Part shown: positions 2,720 to 63,061 of the stretch, piece by piece
Layout: every line of letters starts with the position of its first letter
How positions within the stretch are numbered: position 1 is the first letter of the stretch
Position numbers and translations under genes: made by a program
The notes under the pieces: generated by a model
Told to the model about the DNA's origin: nothing
Seen by the model: the letters and a program-made list of their open reading frames with translations, nothing else
Databases searched by the model: none
Source: Polyangiaceae bacterium
Lineage (GTDB): Bacteria > Myxococcota_A > Polyangia > Polyangiales > Polyangiaceae
Assembly: GCA_009781005.1 (NCBI GenBank)
Contig: WQYX01000008.1
Span: forward strand, 1-64,000
Length of the DNA stretch: 64,000 nt
Direction: 5' to 3'

Positions 2720-4645
2720 ATGTCTTCGTTTCTCGAAGCGCTCGCGACGGGCCCCCTCGTCGTCGACGGCGCGATGGGCACGCAGCTCTACGAGCGCGGC
2801 GTGCTTTTCAGTTCGTGCTTCGAGGAGCTCTGTCTGTCGCGTCCCGAGCTCGTGAAAAAGACGCACGAGGATTACGTGCGCGCGGGTGCGCAAGTCCTCG
2901 AGACGAACACGTTCGGTGCGAACGCGATGCGCCTCGATAGACACGGCTTGTCCGGCAAAGTTCGTGAGATCAACGTCGCCGGCGTTCGACTTGCGCGCGA
3001 TGCCGCAGGTGGCAAGGCGTTCGTCGCCGGCGCCATCGGACCCTCGGGATACTTTCTCGGCGACGCGCTTGCCGAGGATCTCGCCAAAGTGCGCGCGGCG
3101 ATTGCCGAGCAGGCGGAAGCCTTGGTCGATGCGGGTGTCGATGCGCTCGTGATCGAGACGGTGCGGCAGACGAACGAGCTTCGCGTCGCGGTCGAGAGCG
3201 CCGTTGCCGTCTCGAAGGGGCAGATCCCCGTCGTCGCGTCGGCATCGGTCGACGAGCAAAGCCGCATGTCCGACGGAACGACGTCCGCGGAGATCGCGCG
3301 CTTGATGCGTGAGTGGGGTGCGAGCGTCGTCGGCGTCAATTGCTGTGCGGGTCCGATGAACGTGCTCGAAGCCGTCGAACCGATGCTCGAATTGAAGCTG
3401 CCGGTCTGGGCGGTACCGAACGCGGGGCTCCCCCGGCGCGTCGACGAACGGCTCGTCTACGTGTCCACCGCGGAGTACTTCGGCGTCTACGCACGGCGCA
3501 TGTTCAAGATGGGCGTGCGTCTCGTGGGCGGGTGCTGCGGAACGACGCCCGATCACATCAAACGCATTGCGGCCGCGGCGCGCATGGTGGGTTCATCGGA
3601 TCCCGCGCGAGGCAATGTCTCTTCGGGGCCGCCCGCGATCCAGCGCGCAAGCGACGCCTTTCAGACGTGGTCGGTGAACTCGCCACCTCCGTCCGGGGCG
3701 AACAAGGCTGCGCCCTTTGCCGAGCGCAGCAGCCTCGCGAGCAAGATCGCACGCGGCAAGTTCGTCGTGTCCGTCGAAGTAAACCCTCCAGTCGGTCTCG
3801 ATCTCGGCGGCGCCATCGCCGCCGCGAAGATGCTGCGAGACGGCGGTGTCGACGTCATCAACATCGCCGACGGTGCGCGCGCGCAAGCGCGCATGGGCAA
3901 CATCGCCATGGCGGCGCGCATCGAGCAGCATGCGGGAATGGAGACGATCCTTCACGTGTGCGGCCGCGATCGAAACCTGCTGGGGACGCTTGCGCATCTG
4001 CTCGCCGCGCACGAACTCGGGATCCGAAACCTCGTCGTGATCACGGGCGATCCGCCGAAGATGGGCGACTTCCCGGACGCATCCGCCGTCTACGATCTCG
4101 ACTCGATCGGCATCCTCAAGCTCGCCGCGCGCCTGAACCACGGCATCGATCCGGGAGGGAAATCGCTCGGCGGGGCAACGCGCTTCGTGCTTGCAACGGG
4201 CGCCGAGCCCGCGGCGCTCAACTACGAACGCGAGCTCACACGCCTTGCGCATAAGAAGGATGCCGGCGCGGAGCTCGTGATGACGCAGCCGGTGTACGAT
4301 CCTCGAGTGCTCGACAAGTTTCTTACGGACACGGCGCCGCTCGGACTGCCGGTGCTCGTCGGCATCCTTCCACTTGCGAGCCATCGCAACGCGGAGTTTT
4401 TGCACAACGAGGTGCCCGGCATGCAGGTGCCCGAGCCCGTGCGCGAACGCATGCGCAAAGCTGGTTCGGGTCCGCTCGCTCGCAAGGAGGGCGTCGCGAT
4501 CGCGCGCGAAATGCTCGTTGCCGTGCGCGGGCGCGTGGCCGGCGCGTACATCATGCCTCCGCTCGAGCGCTACGAGCTCGCGCTCGAAGTCGTCGACGGC
4601 TTGCTCGATCGCGACGACGTCCTTCGTCCGACTGCGAAAGCATGA
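2720..4645 (+). CDS. Bifunctional homocysteine S-methyltransferase / methylenetetrahydrofolate reductase
   Basis: A 641-residue fusion enzyme of methionine and one-carbon metabolism. Residues about 1-300 are a Hcy-methyltransferase barrel: DGAMGTQLYERG at the start, and the zinc-ligand cysteines in GVNCCAGP (about 208) and GGCCGTTPDH (about 271). Residues about 340-641 are a MetF-type flavin barrel, with SVEVNPP at the first strand, LHVCGRDRN and ITGDPPKMGD, and MTQPVYD near the folate site. The fusion would make 5-methyl-THF and methylate homocysteine in one polypeptide, as proposed for YitJ-type proteins. The start at 2720 (MSSFLEAL) is preferred over an in-frame ATG at 2606 because homology begins there and the longer form overlaps the divergent gene. 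The stop overlaps the next start (ATGA). Confidence 0.93.
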   Translation: MSSFLEALATGPLVVDGAMGTQLYERGVLFSSCFEELCLSRPELVKKTHEDYVRAGAQVLETNTFGANAMRLDRHGLSGKVREINVAGVRLARDAAGGKAFVAGAIGPSGYFLGDALAEDLAKVRAAIAEQAEALVDAGVDALVIETVRQTNELRVAVESAVAVSKGQIPVVASASVDEQSRMSDGTTSAEIARLMREWGASVVGVNCCAGPMNVLEAVEPMLELKLPVWAVPNAGLPRRVDERLVYVSTAEYFGVYARRMFKMGVRLVGGCCGTTPDHIKRIAAAARMVGSSDPARGNVSSGPPAIQRASDAFQTWSVNSPPPSGANKAAPFAERSSLASKIARGKFVVSVEVNPPVGLDLGGAIAAAKMLRDGGVDVINIADGARAQARMGNIAMAARIEQHAGMETILHVCGRDRNLLGTLAHLLAAHELGIRNLVVITGDPPKMGDFPDASAVYDLDSIGILKLAARLNHGIDPGGKSLGGATRFVLATGAEPAALNYERELTRLAHKKDAGAELVMTQPVYDPRVLDKFLTDTAPLGLPVLVGILPLASHRNAEFLHNEVPGMQVPEPVRERMRKAGSGPLARKEGVAIAREMLVAVRGRVAGAYIMPPLERYELALEVVDGLLDRDDVLRPTAKA

Positions 4646-9553: not shown

Positions 9554-10606
9554 CTAAAATGCTCCTTGTACGCCGAGCGCCGTCGGCGATGCCACGAGAC
9601 GCGCGTGTGCAGCAGGCGGCGAGACTTGCCCCGTTGTCGTCGACGATTGGCTGCCAGACGACCAGAGCAAAACGGAGACAACACCGAGTCCGGCGGCACC
9701 GATGAAGCCGCCGAGAGCGACTGCATCGAGCGTCCGAATTTTCGAGCGTTGGCTGTCGCAGGGGGCGACCTGTGTGGAACACGTGGTGCGAAGGATGCCG
9801 ACGGGAGTAGTTCCTGGCGTAACTGCGTCGCAGGAGGCGACTTGCGTGGAACATGTGGTGCGGCTACTGCTTTGCGCGTTGCCCGCGAGGATGAAACTGA
9901 CGACGCCGCCGGCCGCGAGCACCACGGCGCCGGCGGTCGTCGCGATGGGCAACGTGTACGAACGATGCCGAGGCGGCTCCTGCGGCAGACGCGGGGAGGG
10001 CCGAGGAACGGGTGCGACACCGACGGGAGATAGCGCGATCTCGACGGTTGTTGATGATCCATCGGACGCCGTCACCGTACGCGCGAAGCTTTCGTAGCCC
10101 GGTGCGCGCGCCTCGATCGTGTGCTCGCCAGGCTCGACGCGAAACGGCTTGCCATCGAGTTCGTCGGCGACAACAGTTTTTTGATCGAGCATGACGTCGA
10201 CGCCCGACGGCGGTGACGTCACGCGGAGCACGAGCTTCGGCACGCGCGTGCGCAGCGGATCAATCCGCGCAGCGATGGCCGAGCGTACTTCAGGCTTGTT
10301 CGTCTCTTCGGCGAGTCTGTCCGCCGCCTCGTACTCTTCGAGGGCGGGCACCAGCTTGCCGATCATCTCGAGGCAGTAGGCCTTGTGGAAGCGCAGTCCC
10401 GCGGTCGCCGTCATCGCTTCGGCTTCCTTGAATTTGTCGAATGCGGAAGCAAACGAACCTCGCTTCTCGAGATCGAGACCCTCATCGAAAAGCCTTTTCG
10501 CAGCTTCCGTGGTCTCTTTGGGGGTGCGTACGTCCGCGGCGTGCGCGACGGAGGCGGGCCAAGCAGCGAGTACTACGCACACAACAACGGCGTGCCGAAA
10601 TCGCAT
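9554..10606 (-). CDS. Exported TPR / PEGA-domain protein
   Basis: A 350-residue protein. The start MRFRHAVVV is chosen because it gives a cleavable signal peptide ending AHA; an ATG 16 codons upstream only adds polar residues. Residues about 25-110 are TPR-like helices (AKRLFDEGLDLEKRGSFASA). Residues about 125-190 form a PEGA domain (SPPSGVDVMLDQ, then VEPGEHTIEARAPGYESF), which usually binds surface-layer or cell-envelope material. A membrane helix follows at about 215-235, and another at about 285-305. Between them lies an imperfect in-frame duplication carrying TTCSTQVAxCD twice (see the finding). It heads a probable two-gene unit with the Cys-rich lipoprotein. Envelope attachment is inferred. 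Confidence 0.85.
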   Translation of the reverse strand: MRFRHAVVVCVVLAAWPASVAHAADVRTPKETTEAAKRLFDEGLDLEKRGSFASAFDKFKEAEAMTATAGLRFHKAYCLEMIGKLVPALEEYEAADRLAEETNKPEVRSAIAARIDPLRTRVPKLVLRVTSPPSGVDVMLDQKTVVADELDGKPFRVEPGEHTIEARAPGYESFARTVTASDGSSTTVEIALSPVGVAPVPRPSPRLPQEPPRHRSYTLPIATTAGAVVLAAGGVVSFILAGNAQSSSRTTCSTQVASCDAVTPGTTPVGILRTTCSTQVAPCDSQRSKIRTLDAVALGGFIGAAGLGVVSVLLWSSGSQSSTTTGQVSPPAAHARLVASPTALGVQGAF

Positions 10607-26043: not shown

Positions 26044-26238
26044 ATCCCGCTTTCGATTTGACGTGATCTCATCGTTGGGGCCTGCGGTGCGGTCCTCAAA
26101 GCCACACAAGGCTATTCACTTCGCCTTCGGCTTCGTCGCTCTCACTGTACTCCGTCCAGCAAAGCTGGACTTCGTACAGTTCGAGTCCGGTCGCATCACA
26201 TGCCCCGCCTCGACCTCACGTCAACTTGAAAGCGGGAT
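26044..26238 (+). repeat. R1 repeat, copy a (complete)
   Basis: This 195-bp element is closed by a perfect 11-bp inverted repeat, ATCCCGCTTTC (26044-26054) and GAAAGCGGGAT (26228-26238). Inside come the R1 ends (GATTTGACG and CGTCAACTT), a core (ATCGTTGGGGCCTGCGGTGC), a hairpin AGCC...GGCT, and a second hairpin GTCCAGC/GCTGGAC nested in TGTAC/GTACA. It is over 90 percent identical to 47260-47451 across the interior but not in the outer arms, where that copy has a different, again self-complementary, sequence. It lies between two divergent genes. Confidence 0.9.
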
Positions 26239-34083: not shown

Positions 34084-34206
34084 AACCGCTTTCAAGTTGA
34101 CGCGAGGTCGAGGCGGGGCCGAGGAGCGGACCGGAACAGCCTTGAAGGCTTTGAGGACCGCACCGCAGGCCCCCAACGATGAGATCGCGGCAAATCGAAA
34201 GCGGTT
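34084..34206. repeat. R1 repeat, copy c (compact form)
   Basis: A 123-bp element closed by AACCGCTTTC (34084-34093) and GAAAGCGGTT (34197-34206), a perfect 10-bp inverted pair. Inside are the R1 ends (AAGTTGACGCGAGG and GCGGCAAATCG), a core with hairpin AGCC...GGCT and GAGGACCGCACCGCAGGC. It is R1a/b read in reverse with about 70 bp of core missing. The first two bases of the KamA stop codon TAA (34205-34207) fall in the arm. Confidence 0.88.
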
Positions 34207-45606: not shown

Positions 45607-46097
45607 GAGAGGGCTGGGCTTTTCTGCCGTGCAAAAGAGAAAGCCGCCGCTGCAAGAGCAGCAACGCTGCGCGGAGGGGGATCTAAAGCCACGGGGATGT
45701 CAAGCCAGAAAGCACTCTCCGTGACGATTCTTTTTAATCTGCGATTGTGGAATTCCTGCTGGGATCCACAGGGGAAATCTCTCTGAATACCGAGGGGGAT
45801 TCGGCGAAACGCGGAAGATTCCACGAACGAGTCCGAGGATGTCCATCCATGTATCCCCGGAACGTGATGCGCTCACGCGGCGAAAATCTGGCCAAAATTT
45901 GACTTATCCCCATAATTCACAGGCTCTAGTGTAACGACCGATTTTTAAATAATTTTATCTGAACCCCAGAGGAGAGAGCGGCGAGGAGTCCGCGGAACTG
46001 TGGGGCTTTGGGGACACCGCCAAGCCCGAGACTCGTGCCCGTCTCCGCGCGGAGACTCTTGACCCCGGATGAGATCCCGGGCACTTCGAGAACTCCC
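45607..46097. other. AT-rich intergenic region before dnaN (candidate origin/promoter region)
   Basis: This 491-bp gap is much richer in A+T than the rest. It contains TTATCCCCA at 45904-45912 (8 of 9 with the DnaA box TTATCCACA), GGATCCACA at 45762-45770 (7 of 9), an all-A/T run except one C at 45941-45960, and TTTTTAATC near 45731. A TTGACT at 45899-45904 could be a -35 element, though no good -10 sits at the right spacing. The role as origin or as dnaN promoter is undecided; the region is a candidate only. Confidence 0.4.
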
Positions 46098-47255
46098 ATG
46101 GAGCTCACGGTCGCCAAGAAGGATTTGCTGAAGATCGTCGCACGAATGCAAGGCGTTGCGGAGCGCAAGAGCACGATGCCCGTGCTTGCAAATGTGTTTC
46201 TTGCCGCGGAGGGACCAAACGTACTGCGACTCGCTGCGACCGACCTCTACTTGTCTCTTCTTGGGAGAGTGAACGCGGATGTGACAAAAGAAGGCAGCGT
46301 TGCTGTCTCTGCTAAGGATTTGTTCGAGCGAATCAAGATGATGCCAGAGGGGCCCGTCGTGATCTCGACGCAAGACAACGCGACGACCACTCTCAAATCG
46401 AGCGGTAGCGCGCGCCGTTACACGCTTCGTGGCATGCCCGGAGACGACTTCCCTCCTCTTCCTCAACCGGCAGAGGGATCTCCGAGTCTCGCTCTCGACG
46501 TGGACGTCTTGTCGGAGCTGATACAGAAGACACATTTCTCGGTATCGACAGACGAAACTCGCGCTCATCTAAATTCGGCGCTCTTCGAATGGGAGGGCGA
46601 CATTGTCCGGATGGTCACGACGGATGGGCATCGGTTGTCGAAGGCGGACGTGAAAGTCCCCGATCGTCAGGCGTCAGCAACCATGCTGATCCCCCTTAAG
46701 GCTATTCAAGAGTTACGTCGCATTTGCGACGAAGTGCTTTCTTACTCCTCTGCGACGAACGAGAAAAAGAGACCTGAACTCCTTATTACGCAGAGCGGTT
46801 CGAGTGCGTTCTTTCATGGTGCAGGCATGACCTTCAGCGTGAAGCTCGTGGATGCTCAATTCCCTCCGTATTCGCAGGTTATTCCTCGAGCGAGCGAGAA
46901 AGTGGCACGCGCACCTCGCGCCGCTTTTGCCGAAGCTCTCAAGGCCGTATCGGTGGCTGCGAGTGAGCGTACCGGCGGCGTCAAACTTTCTTTCTCGAAA
47001 GGATCCATGCGAATTACGAGTGAATCCCCTGAGAGCGGAGACGGCTTCGACGAGATTTCGGTCGAGTACGAGGGGGCAAACATGAGTATTGGCTTCAACG
47101 CGAAGTACATCCTCGACGTGCTTGCTTCGATTACAGATGAAGAAATTCTGCTTGGATTGTCTGGAGAGCTAGATCCTGCGGTGATTCGTCCTTCGAGCTC
47201 CGTTCCCTCTTCAGATCGGCAGTATCTTGCGGTCGTCATGCCCATGCGCATTTGA
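46098..47255 (+). CDS. dnaN: DNA polymerase III beta subunit (sliding clamp)
   Basis: A 385-residue protein that clamps DNA polymerase to the template as a ring dimer. The start MELTVAKKDLLKIVARMQGV matches the usual N-terminus; longer in-frame reading is in poor context. The three clamp domains are visible: the first ends near the ASAKDLFERIKMM-type segment, the second has DGHRLSKADVKV, and the third ends with LAVVMPMRI, the typical C-terminal P-M-R. Length is slightly above the average. An R1 element begins five bases after the stop and separates it from recF. Confidence 0.97.
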   Translation: MELTVAKKDLLKIVARMQGVAERKSTMPVLANVFLAAEGPNVLRLAATDLYLSLLGRVNADVTKEGSVAVSAKDLFERIKMMPEGPVVISTQDNATTTLKSSGSARRYTLRGMPGDDFPPLPQPAEGSPSLALDVDVLSELIQKTHFSVSTDETRAHLNSALFEWEGDIVRMVTTDGHRLSKADVKVPDRQASATMLIPLKAIQELRRICDEVLSYSSATNEKKRPELLITQSGSSAFFHGAGMTFSVKLVDAQFPPYSQVIPRASEKVARAPRAAFAEALKAVSVAASERTGGVKLSFSKGSMRITSESPESGDGFDEISVEYEGANMSIGFNAKYILDVLASITDEEILLGLSGELDPAVIRPSSSVPSSDRQYLAVVMPMRI

Positions 47256-47259
47256 GCTC

Positions 47260-47451
47260 TACATCTTTCGATTTGACGCGATCTCATCGTTGGGGCCTGC
47301 GGTGCGGTCCTCAAAGCCAGAACAGGCTATTCACTTCGCCTTTGGCTCCGTCGCTCTCACTGTACTCCGTCCAGCACGCTGGACTCCGTACAGTTCGAGT
47401 CCGGTCGCATCCCATGCCCCGCCTCGACCTCGCGTCAACTTGAAAGATGTA
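47260..47451 (+). repeat. R1 repeat, copy b, between dnaN and recF
   Basis: A 192-bp element closed by a perfect 10-bp inverted pair TACATCTTTC (47260-47269) and GAAAGATGTA (47442-47451). Its interior is over 90 percent identical to R1a at 26044-26238, including the AGCC...GGCT and GTCCAGC...GCTGGAC hairpins. The outer arm is unlike R1a (ATCCCGCTTTC), yet still self-complementary. The right arm contains the recF ATG (47447-47449) and runs into TATAAT (47450-47455). Confidence 0.9.
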
Positions 47452-48559
47452 TAATTGGAGCGTGCACTCTCTCGTTATCAAGTCACTGCATGTTCGAGCG
47501 TTTCGAAATCTCGCTCGACTTGATGTGGAATGGGGTGAGCGATTTAATATCATCGCTGGAGACAATGGTCACGGCAAGACCAATCTCCTCGAAGCTCTCT
47601 ACGTCGTATCGACATCGAAAAGTTTTCGTACCTCGAAGGTCGATGAGCTCGTTGGGCACCATGCGGCTCTTGCGAGCGTGCGCGCAACCGTGTGCGAAGA
47701 CGGAGAAGCGCGCGTGCAATCCGTCGGGCTAAAACCTGGCTCGAGATCGGTCAAAATCGACGGCAAGCGGCCTCCAACTCTTGCAGCTTTTGCCGTTCGC
47801 TCGCCTGTCGTCGTATTTCATCCCGGAGAACTCTCTCTCTCCATGGGATCGAGCCAAGGTCGAAGACGCCTCCTCGATCGCACGTCTCTTTATGCCACGG
47901 CTCAATCCATGGCCGATCTCGACGCGTATGCGCGTGCGATTCGAGCTCGCCAACGTATCTTGGAGGATCGAGGAGCCCATGCCCCGGAACTTTTCGATTG
48001 GGAGACTCTCGCGGTACGCCATGCCCTTGCTGTGATGGAGCATCGCGCATGCGCGGCCAAGCTCCTTTCTGCTCACGCGGTGTCCGCGTTTTCTCGGATT
48101 GCGGCGCCGGATCTCTCCTTCGAAATTGGATATGCGCCGTCTGCTCCTCGCGAATCCACGGAATATGCTGCGGAACTCTCAAAATTTCGGAATAGAGATC
48201 TCGCACGGGGCAGTGCGTCGATTGGCCCTCATCGTGACGAGCTGTCGCTTTCTCTCAACGGACGGCCTGCGCGCGGTTTCGCGTCGCAAGGTCAGCACCG
48301 AGCGATCACATTGTCGCTCAAGTCGGCCGAGATCGAAGCGATCGGCTACGCACGAGGGGTGCGACCGATCTTGCTTCTCGACGACGTTTCGAGCGAGCTC
48401 GATCGCGATCGCACGGCGGCACTGTTTTCGTTTCTGAGGGAACTTCGCGGCCAGGTATTCCTCACGACAAATCGCCCGGAGCTCATCGTCACGGGGGACG
48501 ATCTCTCGGAGCGACGAGAATTCCTCATTGCGCAAGGGGCGCTCGTTCGAACGCTGTGA
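47447..48559 (+). CDS. recF: DNA repair and replication protein RecF
   Basis: A 370-residue SMC-like ATPase loading RecA at gaps. Walker A is GDNGHGKT at 38-45, the signature region is ASQGQHRAITLSLKSAE and Walker B is ILLLDDVSSELD. Length is typical. The first Met lies inside the R1b arm; a GTG at 47462 (VHSLVIKSLHVRAF) matches other RecF N-termini better and lies seven bases after TATAAT, so a leaderless start there is possible. The true start is unresolved. Confidence 0.94.
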   Translation: MYNWSVHSLVIKSLHVRAFRNLARLDVEWGERFNIIAGDNGHGKTNLLEALYVVSTSKSFRTSKVDELVGHHAALASVRATVCEDGEARVQSVGLKPGSRSVKIDGKRPPTLAAFAVRSPVVVFHPGELSLSMGSSQGRRRLLDRTSLYATAQSMADLDAYARAIRARQRILEDRGAHAPELFDWETLAVRHALAVMEHRACAAKLLSAHAVSAFSRIAAPDLSFEIGYAPSAPRESTEYAAELSKFRNRDLARGSASIGPHRDELSLSLNGRPARGFASQGQHRAITLSLKSAEIEAIGYARGVRPILLLDDVSSELDRDRTAALFSFLRELRGQVFLTTNRPELIVTGDDLSERREFLIAQGALVRTL

Positions 48560-51355
<2,796 letters not shown>

Positions 51356-51357
<2 letters not shown>

Positions 51358-55066: not shown

Positions 55067-57238
55067 TCACTTCCCGTCCCTCATGCATGACGAAGGGGGC
55101 GCTTTGTATGCTCGGATATCCTTGATTCGCTGTTCGAAGTCGCGTCGATCGGCGGCGTTCATCTCGACACCGCCGAACCGCGCCTCGATGTAGCGGTGCG
55201 TCAGGGCGAGTACGTTGCCAGCGAGTGGGTGTGCTTGCTCGGCGAGCCGCTCCGCGTAGCGCAGAGGTGGCAGCGAAGGCGGACGCGACAGTCCGTGCAT
55301 GGTTAGCGCAAGCTCCAGATGCCTGTAGAGTGCACTGATCGCCTCGAGCTTCGGATGGCCCCCTTTGCGGACGTTGGTGGCCGATCTGTTTTTCTTCGGC
55401 CCCGTTGTTCGCTTCCACACGTAGCTGCCAATCGCGAAAGCGAGCAGCATTGCGACAACGACGGGGCCGCGTGTCAACCCTTCCGCGGCGCCACGGTCGG
55501 CGTGCGTGGCCGCGCGAAGTTCATGATACCGGCGACTGAGATTCTCGAAGAGATGAATTTGTGTTTTGAGGTCGTAACCGACGATGTAGCGGTTCCATCT
55601 CTGGGATAAGGCGTCGATCCAATCGCGGAGATAAACATAAGCGCCCGTCTCTTCGAGAGGCTGCGGCGAGTTCGGTGTCGGGTCGAAGGTTGCCCATCCG
55701 TGAATGGGATCATCCAAGTACGCCTCTACCCATGAGTGAGCGTCACCTTGGCGGACAGCATAATAGCGGCCGAAGCGGTTGTACGTTCCTCCAATGAAGC
55801 CCGTGACGTTGCGCGACGGAATGCCAATTTCGCGCAACATGATGGCCATGGCCGTCGAGAAGAACTCGCAGTGCCCGCGCTTCGATTCGAACAGAAAATG
55901 ATCGATGGGTTCGGGGTGCCCGCCGGAGGGAGAAGCCGTATCGTAGCGATAATCGCGTTTGAGGTGATCCTCGATAGCCTTGGCTTTGAGATAAGGCGTT
56001 GATTGGCTATCCGCCCATTCGTGTGCGAGATCGGCGATGCGGGTCGGCATGGTTTCGGGGATCTCGAGATAGCGGGTGCGCTCCTCCTGCGAGAGGGTCT
56101 CGACGATGGGCTCGCGATCTCCTGCCACGTACGCGTCGTAGCGAATGCCATGGGAGTCTGTCCCGGAGTAGCGCACCTCGCCCTCGGCTCCGCGGACGAG
56201 CCGCAGGCGTTCGCCGAGCACGGTTTTTTGCTGTATGCGCAATTCGACGGCGATTGCACGCGGAGGTAAAAATACGACGGGAGGGTCGATTGTCTCCAAG
56301 TCAATCGACACTTTGCGATCCCAACCGTCGGGACGTCGGAAGAGCGAGAGCGTCTCGCCGGACTCGGCGTCGATGGGGCGCTCTCGTAGAGCGCGCGACC
56401 ATGCGTGACCGTTGTAATTGTCAAAGGCGGTGCCACGGAAGCGAAGAGTATTTTTTGTAGGGCGGGGCTCCGGCAGATCGGGGATGTCGAAGCGCAGCGC
56501 GACGGTCGGATCGTTACGCAAGACTCCTACTTCGCCAAGATCGACGCGGTCGCTGAAGCCAACCATGCGGCCGGGCCGAGCGTGATTCAAAAGCAGGAGA
56601 GAGAGTCCGACCCTCGGGAACGTCACGAACAGGGCTGCCGTGAAGAAGAAAATGGGAAGGGACAGAAGGCTCGTCATAAAAAGGAAGCCTCGTCCAACAA
56701 CGCGGCGACTCCGCAGGATTCGCGGAACGTCCACGGGCAGACCCGTGCGATCCCGCGCGCCTTGGCGGTAGTTCCCTTCGACTTCTCGACGGAGATGACT
56801 GAGTACGAGCGCGCCCGGGATCATGAGGAGAAAACCGAGGAAGCAGAGCCCATAGGTGAGTCCGCCGCCGAGCACGGTTCCCGTAACGAAGTGCAAGAGG
56901 GCAAGTACGATGATTTGTTGGTCGTGCACGGCGCCGCGGCGGGTCGCGACGCGAAAAATTTGTAGAATGGCGGCGAACTCGACGGCGATGTCGAGCGCGG
57001 GGCGTCCGGCGAAGAGCTGACTGATCTGCACCACGAAGAGGCAGGCTGGGCCGCCCGTCGCCAGATAACGGAGTGCTCGGCGATTCTCCCAGCTCTCAGG
57101 GACCGCGAGTGCGAGTGCGAGTCCTCCAAGGAGGAACACGGTCATCCACGGCGTCATTGAAGCCGCACTGACAACGGCAATGACGCCAAAGGCGGCGAGC
57201 GCATCCGTCATGACTCGGTGTGCAGTTCCGAATCTCAT
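55067..57238 (-). CDS. Transglutaminase-like membrane protein (DUF3488 + transglutaminase core)
   Basis: A 723-residue protein with about seven membrane helices in the first 230 residues (MTDALAAFGVIAVVSAASMT, LTYGLCFLGFLLMIPGALVL), a periplasmic DUF3488-like beta-rich region, then a transglutaminase/protease core: Cys in KRGHCEFFSTAMAIMLREIG, His in GDAHSWVEAYL and Asp in WATFDPTP. A last helix and a cytoplasmic tail follow. The start overlaps the DUF58 stop by ATGA, and the gene is last of the MoxR-DUF58-transglutaminase set. The family is linked to cell-envelope and protein maturation with no fixed reaction. Confidence 0.92.
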   Translation of the reverse strand: MRFGTAHRVMTDALAAFGVIAVVSAASMTPWMTVFLLGGLALALAVPESWENRRALRYLATGGPACLFVVQISQLFAGRPALDIAVEFAAILQIFRVATRRGAVHDQQIIVLALLHFVTGTVLGGGLTYGLCFLGFLLMIPGALVLSHLRREVEGNYRQGARDRTGLPVDVPRILRSRRVVGRGFLFMTSLLSLPIFFFTAALFVTFPRVGLSLLLLNHARPGRMVGFSDRVDLGEVGVLRNDPTVALRFDIPDLPEPRPTKNTLRFRGTAFDNYNGHAWSRALRERPIDAESGETLSLFRRPDGWDRKVSIDLETIDPPVVFLPPRAIAVELRIQQKTVLGERLRLVRGAEGEVRYSGTDSHGIRYDAYVAGDREPIVETLSQEERTRYLEIPETMPTRIADLAHEWADSQSTPYLKAKAIEDHLKRDYRYDTASPSGGHPEPIDHFLFESKRGHCEFFSTAMAIMLREIGIPSRNVTGFIGGTYNRFGRYYAVRQGDAHSWVEAYLDDPIHGWATFDPTPNSPQPLEETGAYVYLRDWIDALSQRWNRYIVGYDLKTQIHLFENLSRRYHELRAATHADRGAAEGLTRGPVVVAMLLAFAIGSYVWKRTTGPKKNRSATNVRKGGHPKLEAISALYRHLELALTMHGLSRPPSLPPLRYAERLAEQAHPLAGNVLALTHRYIEARFGGVEMNAADRRDFEQRIKDIRAYKAPPSSCMRDGK

Positions 57239-58308
57239 TCGGTGGTTCGCGCCCAGGTTGTGCACTCGACGAAGGGAGGGCGGGCTGTCTCGCGCGGGGC
57301 ATGGACGGCAGAGGCTGGAACGGACTCGACGAACGCGAGAAAGCGAAGGAGAGGATCGGCGCCCGTGACACGGTTTGCGCGCACGGCGTCTCCGGTCGTC
57401 GTCAGGATCGCGACACGGTCGCCTCGCTTGACGTGTGCAACGGCGCGCGATGCGCAATCACGGATTTTGCGCTCGAAGAGGGTATCCCATTCGCCATCTG
57501 CATCTGCGTTGTTGGGACAGACGGTATCGAGGGGAAGGACGATATCGGGATGTGCCTCGCGCGCGCGCTCGCGCATGACGAGTTGGCCGACCGATGCACT
57601 CTTTCGCCAGTGCACGTCGCGCGGGTCCTCTCCCTGACGCAGAAGTTTGAGTCCGAGATAGTCGTCGCCGTGACCGCGACCAACCGCGGTGTCGCCGCCG
57701 ACGTGGCGACCGGCGGTGAGCGGGGCGAGCTCGATGGGGTCGACAGCCGGATAGATGACGAGTTCGCTCTCGGCTGGGACCTCTCGCGACTTTTCGAACA
57801 ATCCAAAAGGGAAGCGCGTTGCGACGCGAAATCCAGTGTGCAGATCTCGTCCTCGCCTCGCGGGGATTCGTCGGTACGCGGCGACCTGCGCGTATCCCGG
57901 ACTGATCTTCAGGAAGAAACATCGCTTGTCCGCAGGCTGGTCCAATCGAAGATCTTCGACTTCGATCGCGTAGGAAGGCACGCGAAGCTTGTGATTGATG
58001 ACTTCGATCTCGACGATGTGCGGGCGCCCGACGTACGCACGAAGTGGCAGTTTTCTCGCGACCGTGATGTCGCGAAGACTCAGCTCGCTCATGAGTCCGC
58101 TCACGATGATGAGGGCGAGGAGCATTCCGAGCAGCAGATAGAGGAGATTGTTGCCCGTGTTGATGGCGGCAAAGCCCACGCCGAGCGTAACGCCGACGAA
58201 GAACTTCCCTTCGCGCGTGACCTTGAGTTGGCGAGGAAGACGAATCTTCGACCAGAGCGGACGAAGCCTGCTGGCGCGCGCGACCGTTCTGCCAAGCGGA
58301 GTCGTCAT
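57235..58308 (-). CDS. DUF58 protein
   Basis: A 357-residue protein with two membrane helices (about 38-70, FVGVTLGVGFAAINTGNN and LLYLLLGMLLALIIVSG) and a DUF58 domain. The characteristic motif is GDDYLGLKLLRQGEDPRDV followed by HWRKSASVGQLVMRE. DUF58 proteins are usually partners of MoxR ATPases and may act in metal insertion or folding. The start MTTPLGRT lies 12 bases after the MoxR stop. It couples to the transglutaminase gene by ATGA. Confidence 0.92.
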   Translation of the reverse strand: MTTPLGRTVARASRLRPLWSKIRLPRQLKVTREGKFFVGVTLGVGFAAINTGNNLLYLLLGMLLALIIVSGLMSELSLRDITVARKLPLRAYVGRPHIVEIEVINHKLRVPSYAIEVEDLRLDQPADKRCFFLKISPGYAQVAAYRRIPARRGRDLHTGFRVATRFPFGLFEKSREVPAESELVIYPAVDPIELAPLTAGRHVGGDTAVGRGHGDDYLGLKLLRQGEDPRDVHWRKSASVGQLVMRERAREAHPDIVLPLDTVCPNNADADGEWDTLFERKIRDCASRAVAHVKRGDRVAILTTTGDAVRANRVTGADPLLRFLAFVESVPASAVHAPRETARPPFVECTTWARTTE

Positions 58309-58320
58309 GAATTCTCCGGG

Positions 58321-59283
58321 CTAGAGCGGGACGGGGATCCGCGCGACGATGTTGCGCACGGCGTCTTCGGCTTCGTCGCGCGAGGGGGCAAAACCTCCGT
58401 CGTGCGCGGCGACGCGGATACGGTGAGCGAGCACGGGGACGGCGAGATCATGAATGTCGTCCGCGATGCAGTAGCCTCGTCCTCGAAGAAGAGCACGGGC
58501 GCGCGCGGCTTTGCTCAGTGCCATCGCGCCGCGTGTGGACGCGCCGAGCGAGAGCGCAGACGAAGTACGAGTCGCATGAATGATCAGGTGCAAGTAACTG
58601 AGGAGAGAGTTGTCGATTGCGACGCGGTCCACCTGGCGCTGAAGGGCGACGAGGTGGGACGGGTCGAGAACGACGGGGACGTTGCGGGCCGTATCGGAAT
58701 TGCCTTCGAGCAGGAGGCGCATCTCGACGTGCGGTGGCGGATAACCAATGCGAACACGCAAGATGAAGCGATCGAGTTGTGACTCTGGGAGCGGGAAGGT
58801 GCCCGCAAAGTCTTGCGGATTCTGCGTCGCAATCACGAAGAACGGATCGGGCAGGGGAATGGTCTGTCCGTCGATCGAGACTTGGGCTTCGTTCATGGCT
58901 TCGAGCAACGCCGACTGCGTGCGCGGGCTCGCCCGATTGATCTCGTCGGCAAGAAGGACGTTCGCGAAGATTGGCCCGTGCCGAAGCACGAACTCCGCGT
59001 TGCGTTGGTCGTAGACGGAGACCCCGACAACGTCACTCGGAAGCAGATCGCTTGTAAATTGCACGCGTCTCAGCTCCCCGCCCACGGCGTGTGCAAGTGC
59101 GCGTGCGAGCGTGGTCTTTCCGACACCGGGGACGTCCTCGATGAGCAAGTGACCACGAGCGAGCAATGCAGCGAGTGCGAGCTCGACGGCTTCATGCTTC
59201 CCCTCAAGGGCCCCCTCCACGGCCTGCCGCATTTTTTTTATCAGTGGGAGCTCCTCCCCGAAGAGCGCAGCGACGGCAGTCAT
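58321..59283 (-). CDS. MoxR-family AAA+ ATPase
   Basis: A 320-residue AAA+ ATPase, chaperone-like. Walker A is EDVPGVGKTTLARAL (around Lys56), Walker B is VLLADEINRA, sensor 1 is FVIATQNP, and the ring motif PLPESQLDRFI is intact. The start MTAVAALF at 59283 is preferred; an upstream in-frame stretch overlaps the divergent ABC gene. It heads a three-gene operon (MoxR, DUF58, transglutaminase) known from many bacteria. A 142-bp divergent spacer (59284-59425) with an A/T-rich stretch precedes it. Confidence 0.94.
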   Translation of the reverse strand: MTAVAALFGEELPLIKKMRQAVEGALEGKHEAVELALAALLARGHLLIEDVPGVGKTTLARALAHAVGGELRRVQFTSDLLPSDVVGVSVYDQRNAEFVLRHGPIFANVLLADEINRASPRTQSALLEAMNEAQVSIDGQTIPLPDPFFVIATQNPQDFAGTFPLPESQLDRFILRVRIGYPPPHVEMRLLLEGNSDTARNVPVVLDPSHLVALQRQVDRVAIDNSLLSYLHLIIHATRTSSALSLGASTRGAMALSKAARARALLRGRGYCIADDIHDLAVPVLAHRIRVAAHDGGFAPSRDEAEDAVRNIVARIPVPL

Positions 59284-59425
59284 GGTGCGGAGAATAGCAC
59301 GGAGTTCGAATGCCAGAGGTTTAGGGCGCGGGTAAGAAAATTGCCATCGAATAAGTGCAATGTGCAAGCATGCACGCAGGCGCTCGGATCTTGCCGATCG
59401 TGCCGGACCGCGGCAGTGTGCGCAC

Positions 59426-60070
59426 GTGCCCGCGACGGAAACTTCTTGTTGTGTCGAGCTGCGAAGCGTGACCAAGACGTACGGTCCTGTTCGTGCGCTC
59501 GTTGGGGTGGACGCTCGCTTCGAGGCCGGGCGCGTGTCCATGGTGCTCGGACCCAATGGGTCGGGCAAATCGACTCTGCTCGCGATCGTTGGGACGCTCG
59601 CGCGTCCGAGTTCGGGGCGCGTGTCGCACGGGGCATTGGGTCGAACGCGCGAGGAGGTGCGTGCGGCGCTTGGCTGGGTTGGGCACGAATCGCTCTGCTA
59701 TGCGGACCTGTCCGGGCGCGAGAATATCGAGCTCGCCGCGAGACTTCACGGTCTTGCGGTCGACGCGGCGTTTGCGGCAGCGCGCCAGCGCTTCGAGCTT
59801 GGATCGTTCGCGGAGCGGCCGTTTCGAACGTATTCGCGTGGACAACGCCAACGGGTCGCGCTCGCTAGAGCGCTCGTCCATCGTCCCTCGCTCATCTTGC
59901 TCGACGAGCCAACGACGGGTCTCGATGCGTCGGGCGTCGGGCGTTTGCGTGAGGTCGTACGAGAGGAGGCTGCGCGCGGGGTCGTCGTCGTCGTCGTCAC
60001 CCACGACGACGGTTTCGCGCGAGCCGCGGGGGACGTGCGCGTCGTGCTCGAGCGCGGACGCATCGTGTAG
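59426..60070 (+). CDS. ABC transporter ATP-binding protein (CcmA-like)
   Basis: A 214-residue ATPase. Walker A is LGPNGSGKSTLLAIVG, the signature is FRTYSRGQRQRVALARALV, Walker B is LILLDEPTTGLD and the switch His is in VVVTHDDGF. Length and the G-x-x-G region resemble CcmA heme-exporter ATPases, but the window contains no ccmB or ccmC, so the transporter identity is open. GTG at 59426 is chosen (VPATETSC); an ATG at 59360 would add 22 basic residues. Convergent with bioD across the R3 hairpin. Confidence 0.88.
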   Translation: MPATETSCCVELRSVTKTYGPVRALVGVDARFEAGRVSMVLGPNGSGKSTLLAIVGTLARPSSGRVSHGALGRTREEVRAALGWVGHESLCYADLSGRENIELAARLHGLAVDAAFAAARQRFELGSFAERPFRTYSRGQRQRVALARALVHRPSLILLDEPTTGLDASGVGRLREVVREEAARGVVVVVVTHDDGFARAAGDVRVVLERGRIV

Positions 60071-60080
60071 GACCGCATTC

Positions 60081-60107
60081 GTAGGGGCGGCCCCCTGTGG
60101 CCGCCCT
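60081..60107. terminator. R3 hairpin repeat between convergent genes
   Basis: GGGCGGCC (60085-60092), loop CCCTGT and GGCCGCCC (60099-60106) form a perfect 8-bp GC stem preceded by GTAG. The stem end touches the bioD stop codon (TAG, 60106-60108) and lies 14 bases after the ABC gene stop, so it may terminate both. A near copy lies at 31911-31936. Confidence 0.7.
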
Positions 60108-60840
60108 ATTCGATGCGTTGCTCTGCGAGTGAGGGGAAGAGCATGCCGAGAGCGCGCGTGAATACCGGGTTTCTTTCGAGCTCGGAGGCTCGGGCGCGCG
60201 GCAAAGCCGCGAGGACCGGGACGCTCGTGACGAGCGGGACCTCCGCGGTGTTGTCGCCCGTCGAGCTGTCCGCGTTGGCGGGCGCGGACAGCAGGATGCC
60301 GGAGATGGAGAGTCCGTCCGTCTGCGCCGCGCGAACGGTCGCACCGAGGTCGTGCAACACGCCAAGGCGATCTTGTGCCACGAGAACGACGGCGTCGGGC
60401 GCGAGGTCGCGCGCGAGGTCGGCGTTCGTTCGCGTGGGGTTTTCGGTGAGCGGGGAGAAGAGTCCTCCAGGGAGCTCCACGAGAACTCCGTCCGCTTCAG
60501 TGCGGATGCGCGCGACCCATTCGAGGATGACGGCGAAATCGATGACGCGGCCCTCGATGCGCGCCGCGAGGTGAGGAGAGACAGGGCGAGCGAACAGAAA
60601 CGGGGGCGGGAATTGTTTCACGTGAAACGTTGATGCGCTGGCAAGGGTTTCGCCGTCCGCGCCGAAGAGTGTTCCCTCGGCAACGCCCGTCTCGATCGGT
60701 TTGACGCCCGCGACTTTGGCATCTGCTCTCCCCATGGCCTCGAGTCGTCGGACCCACGCGCGGATCAGCGCGGCGGAGAGGTGCGTCTTTCCAATTTCGG
60801 TACCGGTTCCGCTGACAACGACAAGCGGCGCGAGATTCAT
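60106..60840 (-). CDS. bioD: Dethiobiotin synthetase
   Basis: A 244-residue enzyme closing the ureido ring of dethiobiotin with ATP and CO2. The P-loop is SGTGTEIGKT (10-19), and GVKPIETGV carries the conserved Lys and Glu/Thr. ELPGGLFSPLT is the substrate segment, and SAPANADSS sits near the nucleotide. A parS-like palindrome (60614-60629) is embedded in codons for STFHVKQ. The start ATG at 60840 overlaps the bioF stop by ATGA. Convergent with the ABC gene through the R3 hairpin. Confidence 0.95.
   Translation of the reverse strand: MNLAPLVVVSGTGTEIGKTHLSAALIRAWVRRLEAMGRADAKVAGVKPIETGVAEGTLFGADGETLASASTFHVKQFPPPFLFARPVSPHLAARIEGRVIDFAVILEWVARIRTEADGVLVELPGGLFSPLTENPTRTNADLARDLAPDAVVLVAQDRLGVLHDLGATVRAAQTDGLSISGILLSAPANADSSTGDNTAEVPLVTSVPVLAALPRARASELERNPVFTRALGMLFPSLAEQRIE
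60614..60629. other. parS-like ParB-binding site (15 of 16) in bioD
   Basis: TGTTTCACGTGAAACG matches the 16-bp parS consensus TGTTTCACGTGAAACA at 15 positions and keeps the 14-bp palindromic core GTTTCACGTGAAAC. It lies inside the bioD coding region, where it encodes FHVK. ParB binding is inferred from the near-perfect match. Confidence 0.85.
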
Positions 60841-62012
60841 TCGGGCAAGCTCCCTGTCTGGTGAAGAGCGGAGCGAAGAACATCGATCGCGCGATCGATG
60901 TCTTGCTCGGTGTGGCGCGCAGTGACGGTGAGGCGCAACCTCGCCGTTCCTTCGGGAACGGTTGGCGGGCGAATGGCCTGGACATGGATGCCATTCGCTT
61001 TGGCGATGTTGGCGAGGTGTACAGCCTCCTCTGGTGTGCCGATGACGACCGGGACGACGTGGCCGAAGCCGAGGAGTTGCGGCGCGCGCACGGAGGGAGG
61101 ACCGCCGCTCGGGCCTTCGGCAGCACCGGCGGCAAGCAGTCCTCTCCGCAGGCGGACCGCGAGATCTTGTACGCGAGCACCGATGTCGGGGGTGCGCTGG
61201 AGAGTTTCGAGCGAGCGGAGGGCAGCGGCGGCGGCACAAGGAGCGAGACCCGTCGAGAAGACGAAGCTGCGCGCACGGTTCCAGAGCCACTTGCGAAGGA
61301 CCGCCCGGCCTGCCACGAACGCGCCCTGGGAGCCAAGGGACTTGCCAAGGGTTCCGACGAGGACGTCGGGGGCGATGCCCGCCTCTGCGCAAAGTCCGCG
61401 GCCGCCGGGGCCGAGAACGCCGATGGCGTGGGCGTCGTCGACGATGAGCGCTGCACCTCGCGCGTCGCAGATCCCGCGGAGGGCGGCGAGATCGGGGCCG
61501 TCGGCATCCATGCTGTAGTAGCTCTCGACGATGACCCAGGCGCGCTCCTCCGTGCGCGAAGCGAGTGCACCGTCGATCGCCTGAAGATTGCGGTGCGGGG
61601 TGATGACGACACGCGCCTTGGAGAGGCGGATGCCATCAATGAGCGATGCGTGGTTGAGCGCGTCGCTCACCACGACGTCTGCGGGGCCCGCGAGCGCGGA
61701 AACTGTGCCCACGTTCGCGCAGTAGCCGCTCGTGAAAACGAGGACATCTTCGACGTGGAGCCATTCGGCGAGCGCGCGCTCGAGCCGGCGATGCTCGTCC
61801 CGTTCGCCGGAGATGAGTCGCGAGGAGCCGGAGCCGCTCGGGGACGGAGGCGCTTTCGCGGCCGCGAGACCGAGGTAGTCGTTCGAACAGAACGACAAGG
61901 CGTCCGGAGAGATCGCATCGGCCGGTTGCCGGAAAAGTCCGCGGCGCTCGAGTTCTGCGATCGCACCGGGGAGATGGTCGAGAGGGTCCTCCGAGTGTTT
62001 CACGTGAAACAT
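60837..62012 (-). CDS. bioF: 8-amino-7-oxononanoate synthase
   Basis: A 391-residue PLP enzyme joining alanine and pimeloyl-thioester in biotin synthesis. Diagnostic segments are FCSNDYLGLA, SGSGSSRLISG, FTSGYCANVG, DALNHASLIDGIRLS, ESYYSMDAD, VDDAHAIGVLGPGGRG and the Schiff-base Lys in GTLGKSLGSQGAF. The ATG at 62012 is the first base of MFHVKH, which contains a perfect parS. A longer reading extends upstream but overlaps the next lipoprotein gene. The bioF-bioD pair overlaps by ATGA. bioA and bioB are outside the window. Confidence 0.96.
   Translation of the reverse strand: MFHVKHSEDPLDHLPGAIAELERRGLFRQPADAISPDALSFCSNDYLGLAAAKAPPSPSGSGSSRLISGERDEHRRLERALAEWLHVEDVLVFTSGYCANVGTVSALAGPADVVVSDALNHASLIDGIRLSKARVVITPHRNLQAIDGALASRTEERAWVIVESYYSMDADGPDLAALRGICDARGAALIVDDAHAIGVLGPGGRGLCAEAGIAPDVLVGTLGKSLGSQGAFVAGRAVLRKWLWNRARSFVFSTGLAPCAAAAALRSLETLQRTPDIGARVQDLAVRLRRGLLAAGAAEGPSGGPPSVRAPQLLGFGHVVPVVIGTPEEAVHLANIAKANGIHVQAIRPPTVPEGTARLRLTVTARHTEQDIDRAIDVLRSALHQTGSLPE
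61996..62011. other. Perfect parS site overlapping the bioF start
   Basis: TGTTTCACGTGAAACA matches the 16-bp ParB recognition consensus completely. It spans codons 1-6 of bioF (MFHVKH), with the start ATG partly in the palindrome. A second copy lies 1.38 kb away in bioD. Such sites usually cluster near the replication origin. Confidence 0.93.
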
Positions 62013-62016
62013 GCTC

Positions 62017-62799
62017 TCAGGGATTGCAGACTTTTGCCGCCAGACAATTCTGGCACGGAATGGATTCATCCTGGCCAACGACGCATGGCAGCGTGGTGGT
62101 GCCGCTCGAGCCCGTGGCAGGCGGATTCCGGCAGTTCGGCTGGGTGCCGGCGTCTGGATCGTCGGCAGCAGAGAAATCGACGAGGCAGCCGTAGCAAACA
62201 TCGATCGGGAGGGTGAATTCTCCGCTCTCGAGATTGACGCCTCCGAGGGATGTGCCGAACACCTTGACGTGAGCGATCACCCTGGTGGCCATATTGTTCG
62301 GCCGTGTCTGCGAAAGCGAAGCGGCGGCCATGGCGGCTGTTGGCTTATCGAGAAGGGTGACATTGACCGTGCCGTAGCCGGGGGTGTTGTTGTTCTGCGG
62401 ATCGGCAAAACCAACCCCAGAGGCCGTGAAGGAATTGATCTCGGTTCCGTCCGGCCTTGTCACGGTCACAACCGCTCCGTTGATGTGGACACGATTGCTC
62501 TCCGCACGATTCGACAGCGGGTCCCCACGCGCAACGAGTTGGTTGCCAACGAGGAGGATTGCTCCGAAATTGTCTCGGAGCCCAATGTCGAGCGTACCCT
62601 CGAAGAGCTCGGCCTGCGTGGGATCGTTCGTGTAAATGCAGGTTCCGTTCTGTCGATTCGTCGACGGAGCGAGAGCCCCGTGAATGAAGATGGATTGGTC
62701 GTTCGTCGTGCATGCCGGGACAATCGCACCAACGACAATCGCGCCAACGACGAGGCCGGCGCCGACGAGACGAACGATGGGACCCCAGATGCGCTTCAT
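62017..62799 (-). CDS. Lipoprotein with hydrophobic N-terminus
   Basis: A 260-residue lipoprotein. MKRIWGPIVRL gives a signal peptide with lipobox VPAC. The mature part has many beta segments (SIFIHGALAPSTNRQNGTC, VHINGAVVTVTRPDGTEINSF, GYGTVNVTLLDKP) and two C-terminal Cys groups (CYGCLVDFSAADDPDAG, CQNCLAAKVC). No family is recognised. It lies four bases upstream of bioF on the same strand and may share its promoter, though a functional link is not evident. Confidence 0.85.
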   Translation of the reverse strand: MKRIWGPIVRLVGAGLVVGAIVVGAIVPACTTNDQSIFIHGALAPSTNRQNGTCIYTNDPTQAELFEGTLDIGLRDNFGAILLVGNQLVARGDPLSNRAESNRVHINGAVVTVTRPDGTEINSFTASGVGFADPQNNNTPGYGTVNVTLLDKPTAAMAAASLSQTRPNNMATRVIAHVKVFGTSLGGVNLESGEFTLPIDVCYGCLVDFSAADDPDAGTQPNCRNPPATGSSGTTTLPCVVGQDESIPCQNCLAAKVCNP

Positions 62800-62937
62800 G
62801 GGTCGATACCTTCCACGGCGCAGAGCGTATCCGGGTGGAACGCCAACCGCCAAATTCTCGCCAGACCGCCCCGCCGCGAACCCCGAGCAGGTTGCGGACC
62901 GAGTATTTTGGCCGAGTTCCAAGCAGCACGAGGCGCT

Positions 62938-63061
62938 CCGACGAGAGCTGCTTGTGCAGCTTGAGGAGGAGCAACGAAGGGATGCGATGGGAATCGGTCA
63001 AAAGACGACGGGAGCAACCTTCGAGGGGTTCGAAACCTCACGTCAACTTGAAAGCGGTCTA
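62938..63061. repeat. R1-type repeat, copy g, at the aroB 3' end
   Basis: This segment is about 90 percent identical to 1-121. It starts with the AGCTGC-TTGT-GCAGCT hairpin and ends with ACGTCAACTTGAAAGCGGTC. The aroB stop TAG occupies 63059-63061 at its right edge. No matching left arm is seen, so the copy is a variant with the R1 right end only. Confidence 0.8.

Follow-up and report, generated by a model that had tools for sequence, protein, structure and literature searches.

Background

The parS clusters of the ParABS systems of Bacillus subtilis, Caulobacter and Streptomyces share with the locus described here the same 16-bp consensus, a small number of clustered copies and a single chromosomal ParB. 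They differ from it in their setting: here, bioF-bioD and their surroundings harbor parS throughout a class, with parAB at a great distance rather than close by. Myxococcus xanthus, from the same phylum, likewise has a ParA-ParB operon. Its centromere comprises 22-24 parS sites, situated about 4 kb upstream of parA with ori some 30-35 kb away (PMC3899335, PMC3778016), and is on the origin side, as that of the window's lineage may be. However, the M. xanthus sites, with the consensus TGTTCCACGTGGAACG, are densely arrayed beside parA, whereas the lineage of the window has one to few sites, which are associated with bio genes and have no parAB nearby. In Pseudomonas aeruginosa, nine of the ten parS sites are predicted to lie within genes (PMC4368675), paralleling the presence of centromere sites inside coding sequence seen here; in the present case, though, the hosts are biotin genes throughout, with the same loops being reused over many genera. 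Both intragenic parS and repression by ParB in the vicinity of parS (on plasmids and in P. aeruginosa) are already known. Our literature search, which did not extend to the main older parS survey (Livny 2007), recovered no link between parS and biotin genes and no class-wide parS-bio address.

A centromere that appears fixed at one metabolic operon across a class, with its sites turning over and its partition genes gone, constitutes a natural experiment. It bears on a question posed as open in a review (PMC7333895), namely what fixes the permitted positions of parS and why parS sites cluster. It also illustrates how a centromere can become inscribed in proteins by way of variable loops and offers a concrete, cultivable group for parS prediction and testing.

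A probable parS pair in the biotin genes

The window, i.e., the whole 64-kb stretch of DNA that was analyzed, contains the following relevant features:

46008..51357, plus strand: dnaN-recF-gyrB, genes associated with the origin and 9-14 kb distant from the probable parS pair
55067..59568, minus strand: genes for a transglutaminase-like protein (TgpA), an unnamed product and a MoxR ATPase, flanking bioD and syntenic across the family
60106..60840, minus strand: bioD, dethiobiotin synthase, overlapping the end of bioF
60614..60629, unstranded: probable parS site 2, TGTTTCACGTGAAACG (15/16), in frame in a variable BioD loop (T-FHVK-Q); slot C
60837..62012, minus strand: bioF, 8-amino-7-oxononanoate synthase, start codon assigned by homology only
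61996..62011, unstranded: probable parS site 1, TGTTTCACGTGAAACA, overlapping the probable bioF start codon; slot A, with a homologous slot in relatives
62017..62922, minus strand: ORF directly upstream of bioF, with a lipoprotein-like N-terminus; kept upstream of bioF in the family

The sequence-only reading had reported an exact ParB site and a second match of 15 out of 16 in these biotin genes, both encoding FHVK. A motif scan of the 64-kb window recovers both palindromes at the positions given there: site 1 matches with 0 mismatches, and site 2 differs from TGTTTCACGTGAAACA by 1 mismatch. Of the three bases in the bioF ATG (62012-62010), two fall within site 1, which reads (M)-F-H-V-K-H (ATG-TTT-CAC-GTG-AAA-CAC), whereas site 2, located in bioD, reads T-F-H-V-K-Q. 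This bioF start is the probable one, a longer ORF being also listed across the same stretch. The BioD protein scores above its curated cut-off; the best NCBIfam match of BioF is TIGR00858 (E 5e-105), which falls under the equivalog cut-off of that model, and its gene is in an operon with bioD. The ORF upstream of bioF gave no match in a Pfam search.

Short as it is, such a palindrome could arise by chance in GC-rich coding sequence, but the counts speak strongly against this. The window has 2 matches at up to 3 mismatches versus 0.15 expected by chance. When the search was extended to the whole draft genome (4.77 Mb, 199 contigs), a check that had been proposed along with the original claim, sites 1 and 2 were the sole matches with at most one mismatch, and just one further match with 2 mismatches was found (C36:10607). 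At the base composition of the window, 4.77 Mb is expected to hold 0.00025 exact and 0.014 one-mismatch sites, yet here two are spaced merely 1.4 kb apart. Moreover, dozens of relatives use the same slots (see below). We accordingly consider the probability of a chance origin to be negligible.

The probable cognate ParB

The genome codes for one ParB scoring above the TIGR00180 cut-off, on contig C23 (G000 C23:11192-11710), with a ParA-family gene adjacent to it. This protein carries the CTP-binding motif GERRWRA, a version of the GERRxRA signature, and thereby combines this motif, a ParA partner and specificity residues of the parS type. The latter emerge from its alignment with solved Noc and ParB structures, in which it displays R173 and G201 (GKDR...N; GKDRTTVANSLRLLK, EGHARALL); the residues specifying parS are R173/G201, as against Q173/R201 in Noc (PMC7383237). 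The related Noc system was likewise considered and rejected on both the DNA and the protein side: the palindromes keep the parS bases, while the Noc-binding site (NBS) differs at bases 1 and 6, and the only ParB-family protein above cut-off has R173/G201 and scores under the cut-off of the Noc model. The exact consensus, the genome-wide uniqueness of the pair and the residues of the single ParB together make parS the best reading, in support of the ParB-type identity originally claimed. Hence, to judge from sequence, both palindromes are very probably parS sites that form the chromosome's own centromere.

A conserved address across the order and class

The 14-bp core GTTTCACGTGAAAC is present in 104 of the 152 genomes of the order Polyangiales. 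For most genera, site-flanking DNA from at least one genome was retrieved, in which purpose-built profiles were used to find bioF and bioD. A parS-like site was found within 1.5 kb of bioF in 67 of the 80 informative genomes of the order: in 65 the distance is at most 500 bp, two more fall within 1.5 kb and three others within 6 kb, while 10 have none near (six additional Polyangiales genomes, uninformative due to contig ends, stand outside the 80). Outside Polyangiales but within the class, bioF has a site no more than 3 kb away in 14 genomes and none nearby in 10, with six others being uninformative. In the other classes of the phylum, bioF or bioD occurs within 1.5 kb at 0 of 18 loci. General synteny (bio, moxR, tgpA, clp, gyrB) accounts for much of this conservation at the family level, and therefore linkage within the family is by itself not special.

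As an independent check, 38 genomes of the order chosen for the absence of the exact core were searched with GTTNCACGTGNAAC. Such a variant palindrome is present in 22 of them and, in 17 of these 22 (G049 included), it lies in bioF or just upstream. In four of the 17, one copy is GTTCCACGTGGAAC and maps to PPTVPRGTS, a conserved C-terminal motif of BioF. At four loci from two families (L349, L350, L352 and L361; f6 and f5), it was observed that the motif PPTVPRGT itself can encode this parS variant; bioF may hence be predisposed to acquire parS sites. Separately, a family member with no bioF nearby (G015, locus L047) has three identical copies of TGTTTCCCGTGAAACA at 9752, 9828 and 9901, which read TGTTTCACGGGAAACA on the other strand and may reflect a shifted ParB specificity.

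The retention of the sites with bioF across the class, along with their positions at the bioF start and inside the operon, could alternatively mean that a biotin regulator uses the palindromes as operators to control the bio genes, with the likeness of the palindromes to parS being coincidental. Operators of the biotin operon are expected to follow the bio genes and to be absent without them. However, several genomes possess parS with bioF located elsewhere, and the bioF copies checked in these genomes carry no site. In three genomes with such a displaced bioF (G028, G024 and G078), parS is near a gene for a DnaJ-like protein, identified by its N-terminus. In G028, the sites adjoin dnaJ, and a parS variant downstream of the DnaJ-like gene (L063:8175) overlaps the start codon of an unrelated, non-bio gene (MLHVKH...). 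Further, many sites lie deep in coding sequence or downstream, the same palindrome is found near parB in other classes of the phylum, and the genome encodes a parS-type ParB alongside an exact parS consensus. Membership in a biotin regulon was accordingly rejected, and we regard the operator reading as very improbable.

Slots, turnover and selection on the DNA

In the window's family, the sites occupy three recurrent slots: A, at the bioF start in the FHVK frame; B, in the BioF loop right after NDYLG in the VSRET frame; and C, in a BioD loop in the FHVK frame (the loops being delineated by alignment gaps and variability). Further sites in the family are found between, upstream or downstream of these bioF/bioD slots, and in the other families of the order they are mostly 30-300 bp upstream of bioF. 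Even within the window's genus, one encounters A with C, A alone with one base changed, A with an upstream site, or a downstream site only. Judging from these patterns, single 16-mers are replaceable, appearing and decaying across several slots, while the locus persists.

The codons point to the level at which these sites are maintained. Where a genome contains a further exact site elsewhere, the FHVK of BioF or BioD is spelled TTTCACGTGAAA (34 of 34 cases) and VSRET is spelled GTTTCACGTGAAAC (8 of 8), counts that share ancestry and do not represent independent events. From the codon usage of these genes, the expectation per case would be 0.013 for the former spelling and 0.00001 for the latter. 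The peptide itself is not conserved, with FHVT, FSVA, VQPE and others filling the same loop where the site has decayed. That the parS codons are always used for FHVK and VSRET, while the peptide is freely lost, implies that selection acts on the DNA. The alternative that FHVK is kept for reasons of the protein was rejected given this pattern of codons and losses.

ParB and bioF expression

The sequence-only reading had further suggested that ParB loading could occlude bioF expression, an idea that gains no support here. The parS sites might, in addition, serve gene regulation, with ParB loading at the bioF start tuning bioF-bioD expression and thereby coupling biotin supply to the state of the centromere. 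Site 1 does overlap the start codon, and ParB can silence or repress genes adjoining parS: this is described for plasmid ParB (review PMC7333895) and for the parS3/parS4 promoters of P. aeruginosa (PMC5521831). On the other hand, the position of the sites relative to the bioF promoter or start is not conserved, and sites persist without bioF. Moreover, the spreading of ParB in B. subtilis extends over 10-20 kb (PMC7333895), and any influence of this kind would thus not be confined to bioF. Just 4 bases separate the stop codon of the upstream ORF from the bioF ATG, and hence the bioF promoter may be further upstream; bioF may be co-transcribed with this ORF. The occurrence of sites inside bioD, inside bioF, between them, downstream of them and where bioF has left indicates that regulation of bioF is not what keeps the sites. 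Thus, while some effect of ParB on bioF expression is possible, the parS sites are probably not a bioF control, and we hold such tuning to be unlikely. A further scenario, wherein ParB clamps loaded at the bioF start would govern the expression of bioF-bioD over the cell cycle, a coupling that would have preserved the address while parAB moved to the opposite side, appears distinctly unlikely.

Position relative to the origin and parAB

The original claim had also placed the sites in the origin-proximal region. The presence of dnaN-recF-gyrB 9-14 kb away agrees with this; dnaA, however, is absent from the window and is found on another contig (C14) of the draft genome, leaving the proximity only partly upheld in this genome itself. 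The distance between dnaA and the homologous parS locus, measured in six complete relatives, amounts to 0.11-1.44 Mb, or 1-10% of the chromosome. GC skew in one 14.78 Mb relative (20 samples of 20 kb) was too weak for placing the origin.

Among the genomes of the order, six that are nearly complete or in a single contig have parB at 36-48% of the chromosome from dnaA, i.e., in the half opposite dnaA. In a seventh genome (13.2 Mb), from another order, the positions are 12.48 Mb for parS and 5.31 Mb for parB. A long distance separates parB from parS in all seven (G142, G083, G127, G115, G035, G154 and G227), which departs from the customary placement of parAB close to the origin. Another 12 genomes of the class, all drafts, have parB and parS on different contigs, and in the window's genome too, parB is on a different contig (C23) from the parS pair.

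A proposed old address and departure of parAB

Genes for mnmE and gidB are typical neighbors of parAB. In two families from other orders of the class, the gene order is mnmE-bioD-bioA-bioF-parS-gidB; three genomes from other classes have parB about 1 kb away from parS. The gene for the DnaJ-like protein (confirmed with Pfam in two loci) is the other long-lived neighbor of parS: the arrangement dnaJ-parS-bioF is found in several families, and dnaJ-parS without bioF in f19. We infer that the simplest history is one in which an old parABS-gidB neighborhood lay beside the bio operon, parAB left and parS stayed; these outgroups are the basis for the direction assigned to the parAB move.

Under this proposal, the ParB encoded elsewhere would nucleate on both palindromes, and ParA would segregate the ParB-loaded region. 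The centromere would have held one old chromosomal address, the gidB/mnmE-side or dnaJ-side neighborhood adjoining the bio operon, while the surrounding genes were exchanged; the sites would be in bioF and bioD because the centromere kept this address as its neighboring genes changed. Selection would retain a ParB-binding 16-mer somewhere in ~2 kb, with single copies being gained and lost and settling where coding tolerates them, namely the N-terminal tip of BioF, the loop after its NDYLG motif and the BioD loop. With parAB having moved away in this class, parS alone would mark the old address. Taken as a whole, this explanation of the palindromes as a chromosomal centromere fixed at an old bio-side address from which parAB departed is, on the comparative sequence evidence, highly likely.

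Finally, we observed a dispersed repeat with near-inverted ends, GACCGCTTTCGATTTGACGCGATCT ... GTCAACTTGAAAGCGGTC, at 105-122, 26220-26237, 34084-34101 and 63042-63059 in the window. The same repeat recurs in L033 at about 1121-1240 and 3270-3380. Copies of it flank parAB, and one adjoins aroB; it is possibly a small non-autonomous mobile element.
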